A stretch of DNA of 64,000 nt, taken from positions 3,286,001 to 3,350,000 of the forward strand of contig NC_013743.1 in the NCBI RefSeq assembly GCF_000025325.1. The letters are read 5' to 3'. Position 1 is the first letter of the stretch, and each line of letters begins with the position of its first letter. Made by a program: the position numbers and the translations under genes. Below are positions 52,103-53,770 of the stretch, piece by piece. Under the pieces are notes generated by a model that made no database searches, was not told the origin of the DNA, and was given only the letters and a program-made list of their open reading frames with translations. Origin of the DNA: Haloterrigena turkmenica DSM 5511. Lineage in GTDB: Archaea; Halobacteriota; Halobacteria; Halobacteriales; Natrialbaceae.

Positions 52103-52228
52103 CGGGGTCTCGGATCCGCCGCCCGAGGACGAGCCGCGATAGTCGATCGTCCCCGGCGGTATCAGCGAGAGCGACAGTCAGCTCCGTCTGAACAGCGCTT
52201 TTTACTCCAGTAGGGTGTACGAGTGGTA

Positions 52229-52882
52229 ATGTCCACGATCGCCGAGTTCCGCCTTCCGGCTGCGGAGACGACACTGGGGGTCGCCCTCGAGCACGTTCCC
52301 GACGCCACGTTCGAACTCGAGTCCTCGGTGTCGAAGACGCGACCGTCCCTCTGGCTCTCCGACGTCGACCGCGAGCGGGCCGAGGCCGCCTTCGAGGCGG
52401 ACCCATCGGTCGCGGGCCACGAACTCCTCGTCGAGACCGAGTCCCGGCTGCTGTACGACGTGACCTTCGTGGACGAGACGGTGCGGCTCAGCGACGAACT
52501 GCTCGCCGAGGGCGGCTCCCTGCTGGAGATGTGGGGCACCGACGGCTGGTGGCAGGTACGGGTCCGGTTTCGCGACCGCGACGCCCTCGTCGACGCCTAC
52601 GACCGCCTCGAGGAGGCGGGTATCTCCGCCGACCTGCGCCGGGTCAGCGACGTCAACGGCGTCGCGGACGACGAGACGCAGCTCACCCCCCAACAGCAGG
52701 AGGCCCTCGAGGCCGCCCTCGAGCACGGCTACTTCGAGATTCCCCGCGGCATCTCGATGGAGGAACTGGCCGACGAACTGGGGATCTCCCATCAGGCGCT
52801 GTCCGAGCGGTTCCGCCGGGCCTACGAGACGCTGGTCGACGACGAACTCCAGCCGGCGAGTAACCGATCGGACCTCGAGTGA
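52229..52882 (+). CDS. Bat-type HTH transcriptional regulator
   Basis: 217 residues. The C-terminal 55 residues form the bacterio-opsin activator HTH (LTPQQQEALEAALEHGYFEIPR, LADELGISHQALSERFRRA). The N-terminal part is a small alpha-beta domain of the kind that precedes this HTH in stand-alone members. No PAS or GAF sensor is attached. A TATA-like TTTTTAC about 27 bases before the ATG at 52229 suggests a leaderless mRNA and decides this start over the GTG two codons upstream. Target genes unknown. Confidence 0.9.
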   Translation: MSTIAEFRLPAAETTLGVALEHVPDATFELESSVSKTRPSLWLSDVDRERAEAAFEADPSVAGHELLVETESRLLYDVTFVDETVRLSDELLAEGGSLLEMWGTDGWWQVRVRFRDRDALVDAYDRLEEAGISADLRRVSDVNGVADDETQLTPQQQEALEAALEHGYFEIPRGISMEELADELGISHQALSERFRRAYETLVDDELQPASNRSDLE

Positions 52883-52971: not shown

Positions 52972-53244
52972 ATGCCGTACATGCTCGAATTCTACCAAGC
53001 GGAGGGCTGTCCCCACAGCGCCGAGGTCCGAGAAACGCTCACCGATCTCGGCCTCTCGTACGTGATCCACAACCCTCGACGGCCCGGATCGGAGGGCGGC
53101 GACACGCTCAACGAACTGACTCAGCAGGCGATGGTCGACATCGGCGGCGAGGACGCGATTCCGTTTCTCGTCGACACCGACCGCGGCGAGACGCGCTACG
53201 AAAGCGAGGAGATCGTCGACTACCTCGAGACGCACTACGAGTGA
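52972..53244 (+). CDS. Glutaredoxin/GST-N-like thiol protein
   Basis: A 90-residue thioredoxin fold with a monothiol active site GCPHS (Cys13, Ser16), the cis-proline in DAIPFLVD, and the C-terminal ESEEIVDYLETHY helix as in GST N-terminal domains. It should handle thiols; haloarchaea use gamma-glutamylcysteine rather than glutathione. Monocistronic. Confidence 0.88.
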   Translation: MPYMLEFYQAEGCPHSAEVRETLTDLGLSYVIHNPRRPGSEGGDTLNELTQQAMVDIGGEDAIPFLVDTDRGETRYESEEIVDYLETHYE

Positions 53245-53370
53245 CGGCCGGGTGCGTCTCTATCGATCGTCTCGAGCACGCTGGCAGCGAATCGGGCTGT
53301 ATGCACAGCTGACGAAGGGTAGTCGACGTATTCAGAACCCGCCATAGCAGCCGCTCTCGAGTGTTGAAGT

Positions 53371-53444
53371 GACGGGGTAGGTCAAGGCAGGTGAACCCAC
53401 GTGGAGACCACGCGGGCTGAAAGGTGACTGCTGACCGTGCCGTC
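53371..53444 (+). ncRNA. Candidate structured ncRNA with K-turn-like internal loop
   Basis: The 328-base gap 53245-53572 has no convincing protein gene but folds strongly. From outside in: GACGG/CCGTC (53371-53375 with 53440-53444), GGTCA/TGACC, GCAG/CTGC, then an asymmetric loop with GTGAA on one side and CTGAAAGGTGA on the other, then CCC-A-CGTGG closing on AGA with CCACG-C-GGG. The GA-rich loop resembles a kink-turn as bound by L7Ae, and only the plus strand carries it. CTGA and GTGA boxes also allow a C/D-type guide RNA. I know no named family match. A second small hairpin lies at 53296-53309. Confidence 0.45.
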
Positions 53445-53572
53445 TACCCTCCCTTTCGCCTCTCGTCATAAAACACCACCGGTATGCGACTCCGATAGGG
53501 CCGAACTGATGACCGACGAACCGAGCGGTCGCCGCCACATCGGCCCGGTCCGCGGAAAATCCGAGTCGAAAG

Positions 53573-53770
53573 TCAGTCGCTCGAGGGGACCAGATCGTCG
53601 ACGAAGATCTCGGCGGGGACGTCGGGCAACTGCGGGGGGATGACGCCGTCGCTCGAGTCGACGGCGTGGCCGGTCTCGACGTGGTGGTCGATCGCCGCAC
53701 GCGATCGAGCCCGGGCGGACGGTTCGTCGGTCGCGCTCGCATGCCAGTCGCAGTGCAGACAGTACTTCAT
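53573..53770 (-). CDS. Small zinc-ribbon-like protein
   Basis: 65 residues beginning MKYCLHCDWHAS with a CxxC pair, followed by a HHVETGH helix, the ligand arrangement of a C2H2-type zinc site. The rest is acidic and hydrophobic (PPQLPDVPAEIFVDDL). Many haloarchaea carry such short proteins, a few of which act in regulation. Function unknown. Confidence 0.65.
   Translation of the reverse strand: MKYCLHCDWHASATDEPSARARSRAAIDHHVETGHAVDSSDGVIPPQLPDVPAEIFVDDLVPSSD

Follow-up and report, generated by a model that had tools for sequence, protein, structure and literature searches.

In Haloferax volcanii, 145 intergenic sRNAs have been described and 27 of them have been deleted, and of the haloarchaeal sRNAs examined through deletion most are reported to be confined to their species, which makes comparative work on structure and targets hard; three of the 27 studied, H225.2R (96 nt), htsf359 and hts10 (161 nt), occur in more than ten other haloarchaea (the portion of PMC3956466 drawn on here). 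The cited part of another report describes abundant, untranslated, ribosome-associated sRNAs, among them sRNA_61, a 111-nt noncoding chromosomal RNA with high ribosome occupancy (PMC12482152). The element that we describe here lies in a 64,000-nt stretch of the Haloterrigena turkmenica DSM 5511 genome (hereafter the window). Like the H. volcanii intergenic sRNAs in the portions cited, it is intergenic, about 100 nt long and haloarchaeal, but it spans many genera, whereas most of those sRNAs are species-confined (PMC3956466). Its likeness to those sRNAs of Methanosarcina mazei that act by masking ribosome binding sites, as the cited excerpts present them, is limited to a pairing near translation starts that we propose below (PMC12482152, PMC3510493). 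Like archaeal H/ACA guides it forms a hairpin whose internal loop is topped by about 10 pairs, and an A-rich box can follow the base helix; it differs from them in lacking a kink-turn, in a box that is not general to its members, and in having no target that matched the one pattern searched.

Rfam 15 gave no match in the window, with two chance-level matches appearing only at E up to 10, in agreement with an earlier note on this DNA that could assign the element to no family, and ARAGORN found no tRNA or tmRNA in the window. Topic and sequence-string searches of the literature, the latter with matches judged by title, in part, returned no description of this RNA as a family. It may coincide with a published, uncharacterised Haloferax sRNA, for example H225.2R, hts10 or sRNA_61. 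Comparison of its homologues indicates that it is a real, conserved and structured haloarchaeal RNA gene that is absent from Rfam 15. We consider it very probable (about 0.93) that the minus strand carries here a free-standing gene for a small RNA, which has its own promoter and belongs to an RNA family specific to haloarchaea. Its parts are as follows.

53468..53483, minus strand: promoter-like block ACCGGTGGTGTTTTAT, with a conserved motif of the ACCGGAGG type ahead of a TATA-like TTTTAT
53448 to 53345, minus strand: putative RNA gene of about 104 nt, covariance model match of 106.7 bits
53440..53444, minus strand: helix 1, 5' strand GACGG, 99.8% of cells paired among 94 distinct members
53437..53439, minus strand: internal loop, 5' side CAC, 1.9-2.0 bits per position among 94 distinct members
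53428..53436, minus strand: helices 2 and 3, 5' strand GGUCAG-CAG, changes on both sides in 7 of 10 pairs
53419..53424, minus strand: unpaired CCUUUC bulge, in 93 of 94 distinct members
53394..53418, minus strand: apical helix AGCCCGCGUGG-UCU-CCACGUGGGUU with a 3-nt end loop, changes on both sides in 10 of 11 pairs
53380..53390, minus strand: helices 2 and 3, 3' strand CUG-CC-UUGACC, from pairing and folds
53376..53379, minus strand: internal loop, 3' side UACC, with a nearly invariant UA and variation in the next two letters
53371..53375, minus strand: helix 1, 3' strand CCGUC, from pairing and conservation
53345..53370, minus strand: 3' tail, a pyrimidine/A-rich linker and a conserved GAGCG..GC, GAGC in 93 of 94 distinct members

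Strand and fold

The earlier note had placed a strongly paired RNA at 53371-53444 and read it on the plus strand. Its hairpin and coordinates are sound, in that this strand does fold with 23 pairs, an AGA end loop and a GTGAA / CTGAAAGGTGA internal loop. The choice of strand did not hold up, since z-scores, G·U counts, consensus energy and the position of the promoter block all favour the minus strand. On the plus strand the 74-nt hairpin had a z-score of -2.03 (5 of 200 shuffles equally good), which became -0.12 when 20 nt of flank were included on each side (88 of 200). The minus strand gave -4.13 for 83 nt at the same site, with none of 200 shuffles equally good; read on the plus strand, the identical 83 nt reached -1.83 (11 of 200). 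Twelve of 13 further members that were folded had values from -3.2 to -6.9, the remaining one, L012, standing at -1.86.

Sixteen copies were aligned with MAFFT, once per strand, after one of 17 loci from a DNA search (L016, a 24-nt match in apparent coding sequence) had been dropped. The consensus fold energy was -23.66 kcal/mol on the minus strand versus -13.28 on the plus strand, and G·U cells numbered 37 versus 6 on a hand-named structure whose middle helices had been drawn with the minus strand in mind. Mismatches that recur when the element is read on the plus strand correspond to G·U pairs on the minus strand. A larger alignment gave a strand count of 191 (minus) versus 42 (plus), but it was fitted to the minus model, so that only the MAFFT count is independent with respect to strand.

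The compensating changes that the earlier note had proposed to look for are present. In the MAFFT alignment both partners have changed in 12 of 26 pairs, in 22 cells compared to 7.3 +/- 2.5 in shuffled alignments, none of 500 of which reached as high a count. Among 94 distinct members, in an alignment fitted to the model, 92.8% of cells pair, both partners have changed in 17 of 26 pairs, and cells with such changes number 157 versus 52 +/- 7.8; three loci scoring 38-44 bits (L066, L088 and L089) were excluded from this alignment, and eight weak opposite-strand matches from the later counts. The covariation among homologues thus bears out an unannotated structured intergenic RNA, and these comparisons indicate that the paired element is real and is made from the minus strand.

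Because the strand was wrong, the kink-turn-like reading of its loop is wrong too. The GAAAGG that the earlier note had singled out is the plus-strand complement of the CCUUUC bulge, which on the RNA strand is invariant and has no G·A pairs. Even on the plus strand the motif is not kept: (C/T)TGAAAGG occurs in 56 of the 94 distinct members, and the opposite-strand RTGA in only 30. A kink-turn guide bound by L7Ae on the plus strand was accordingly rejected. From the suggestion of an unannotated guide or regulatory RNA, the regulatory half probably stands, and the L7Ae-bound guide, lacking G·A pairs, is not supported. Nor is an archaeal C/D guide supported, as neither the C box RUGAUGA nor the D box CUGA could be read in the conserved positions of the minus-strand consensus.

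Extent and parts of the RNA

The ends of the gene are inferred from how far conservation extends and from the distance to the promoter. Beyond the GAGCG element at the 3' boundary the sequences stay conserved for only about 5 nt, which sets the length at about 104 nt, from 53448 to 53345. The RNA start reads GGUA and is followed by the helix GACGG/CCGUC, the loop CAC/UACC, the helix GGUCAG/CUGACC and a short second helix, with a mismatch or bulge at the joint of helices 2 and 3. In the base helix and its loop the letters are kept among the 94 distinct members, and not pairing alone. The CCUUUC bulge is unpaired in minimum-energy folds, its last base being paired in some, and the GAGCG..GC of the tail could possibly form a 3-bp hairpin with a 4-nt loop. 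The earlier note had asked whether the sequence might be part of a protein frame; the 94 distinct members range from 100 to 109 nt irrespective of codons and 89 of them have no ATG, indicating that the RNA is not a reading frame.

Promoter

A promoter-like block, ACCGGAGGTGTTTTRT, precedes the 5' end of the RNA on the minus strand; its best match was 38, 39 or 40 nt ahead of the first helix in 13, 32 and 51 loci, respectively, accounting for all 96 of the 96 distinct loci checked. The TTTT of the block lies about 25 nt ahead of the GGUAG start, the distance expected of an archaeal TATA box. At the orthologous Haloferax site, a transcript from the minus strand would start near GGUAGACGG. In having its own promoter block, an intergenic position and no coding frame, the RNA resembles haloarchaeal trans-acting intergenic sRNAs.

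Within its own genome the block has no second site with fewer than two mismatches, and a shared promoter regulon was rejected on that ground; at up to two mismatches there were 16 sites, compared to 7 for the reversed pattern. A link to denitrification found no support in the promoter, as the regulatory motif CGAAYATDKTYG, as given in the cited part of PMC11218638, is unlike the promoter block of the RNA.

Distribution among haloarchaea

An initial DNA search found the RNA in 16 of 61 genomes. A covariance model detected it in 56 of the 125 genomes from the window's family and, at E<=0.1, in 130 of 391 haloarchaeal genomes across the class, 125 of them scoring at least 43 bits and five 22-25 bits. 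A second model, built from 98 members, found it in 126 of the 391 genomes and 34 of 86 genera, with one marginal case (G159, 28.6 bits). All 15 Haloferax genomes searched carried it. A phylum-wide draw of 392 genomes yielded 23 matches, all within the window's own order, in a draw for which the output does not give the share lying outside that order.

Carriers identified by a pattern search were Haloterrigena salina, Natrinema, Natronococcus, Natronorubrum, Halovivax and Haloferax, and further Halobaculum, Halolamina, Haloplanus, Halorussus, Natronomonas and Halorientalis. Of the 60 loci from that search, 53 were confirmed with scores of at least 64 bits; the seven bacterial loci were discarded as chance matches, at no more than 21.1 bits among the scores listed.

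The distribution is patchy, and genomes within a single genus differ in whether they have the RNA. A repeat search of 24 non-carrier genomes under relaxed filters gave a best score of 23.6 bits, suggesting that the absence is real, as far as the model can tell. The RNA is mostly single copy with changing neighbourhoods, and as an accessory gene it is readily gained and lost. Carriage by viruses or plasmids was rejected, as viral contigs held no copies and only two of 72,556 plasmid records held one. The two records are NZ_CP119800.1 (Halomontanus rarus) and NZ_CP044525.1 (Halorussus halophilus), both large plasmids with no annotated feature at the copy.

Extra copies were also observed. In genus g7, one genome (G011) has three copies and another (G068) two, and two extra copies in this genus (L088 5005-5111 and L089 5001-5107; 38-42 bits) have the same promoter, base helix and tail as standard copies, with an apical part that does not align to them. 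A diverged second copy (L090 5005-5109, on G094:C33) lies beside a standard one, with a tail in which GTACGGGTGGTA replaces GAGCG..GC.

Possible function

We tentatively favour, at slightly less than even confidence, a regulatory RNA that acts in trans. The CCUUUC bulge would serve as a seed that pairs close to translation starts with purine tracts resembling GAAAGG. A protein or the ribosome would dock at the invariant base (GACGGCACGG / CCUAnnCCGUC, together with the CAC/UA internal loop), as conservation there extends to the letters and not to the pairs alone. Our weakest suggestion is that the UCUCU-type linker and the GAGCG hairpin of the 3' tail might be an Lsm-binding or end-forming part. 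A seed of 6 nt is short, and the sequence conservation of the helices exceeds what a pure antisense RNA would need. Ribosomal RNA was rejected as the pairing target, since complementarity to it was at or near the level of chance, with 1511 of 3000 shuffles equally good for the bulge, 180 of 3000 for the 3' strand and 131 of 3000 for the 5' strand.

The conservation of helix letters beyond pairing also fits a doubtful reading, which is nevertheless not much less likely than the trans-acting one, in which the RNA is the core of an RNP or is associated with the ribosome, a protein or the ribosome binding the base helix, the CAC/UACC loop and the CCUUUC bulge, with no pairing to mRNA. Ribosome-associated sRNAs are described for H. 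volcanii in the cited portions of PMC6104027 and PMC12482152. Against this, the presence of the RNA varies within one genus, which would be odd for a part of the ribosome.

Examination of the gene neighbourhoods makes it unlikely that the element is a cis-acting leader or a 3' UTR element of an adjacent gene. The RNA is flanked in the window by a gene with a thioredoxin-fold/glutathione-S-transferase N-terminal domain (52972-53244, plus strand) and by a small gene (53573-53770, minus strand) for a 65-aa protein with CxxC, several histidines and no Pfam match; at a Haloferax locus (L059) the RNA lies between a DUF7388 gene and an FAD-dependent oxidoreductase gene. The next downstream gene, from a rough gene caller, runs in the same direction at 32 of 78 loci, as a cis element would allow, but in the opposite direction at 46, and among the compared loci no neighbour gene is common across genera at a fixed place. 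These mixed directions and differing neighbours argue for an independent transcription unit and not a leader, and the RNA has its own promoter block at every locus checked. As further observations on this neighbourhood, the gene for the 65-aa CxxC protein is the upstream neighbour of the RNA at three loci of the genus (L034, L035 and L038), and a BAT/HTH_10 regulator (52223-52882, plus strand) lies two genes from the RNA.

It is distinctly improbable that the RNA is an archaeal H/ACA guide with the CAC/UACC loop as its pseudouridylation pocket. Of 94 distinct members, 48 have an ACA at a distance of 14-16 nt from where the 3' loop strand begins and 68 have any ANA there, and the stem above the loop has about 10 pairs, but ANA is lacking in 26 members and the kink-turn is absent, as ACCUUUC, facing a short CAC-type strand, offers no G-A pairs for L7Ae. 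Letters three and four of what would be the 3' guide also vary, and the one target pattern searched, GRKAU-N-GUG, is absent from the organism's own 16S and 23S rRNA.

That the palindrome acts as DNA, as a protein or recombination site, is very improbable; the conserved promoter block is itself DNA, but the asymmetry of G-U versus A-C would be meaningless for a DNA element, and copies are missing from viral contigs and confined to two among plasmids. Scarcely credible, and rejected for want of co-occurrence, is a Y-RNA of Ro60 (TROVE) proteins, for which a stem-loop RNA with an invariant base helix would be suitable, but the window's own genome has no TROVE match and only three (G017, G111 and G118) of the 12 among 125 family genomes with TROVE carry the RNA. 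The TROVE-domain proteins of these 12 genomes match most strongly over profile positions 273-361, and we know of no RNA partner for them.

Significance

More speculatively, and with less confidence than we place in either leading reading, the family might be a new structured class of haloarchaeal RNA, its invariant base helix and CCUUUC bulge being the core of either an undescribed RNP or a global translation regulator, with a dedicated transcription factor reading the ACCGGAGG block, and with the whole module gained and lost across the order. Its covariation-supported fold, invariant bulge, fixed promoter, natural presence and absence among close relatives, and occurrence in all Haloferax genomes searched make this RNA well suited to testing how sRNAs act in archaea.
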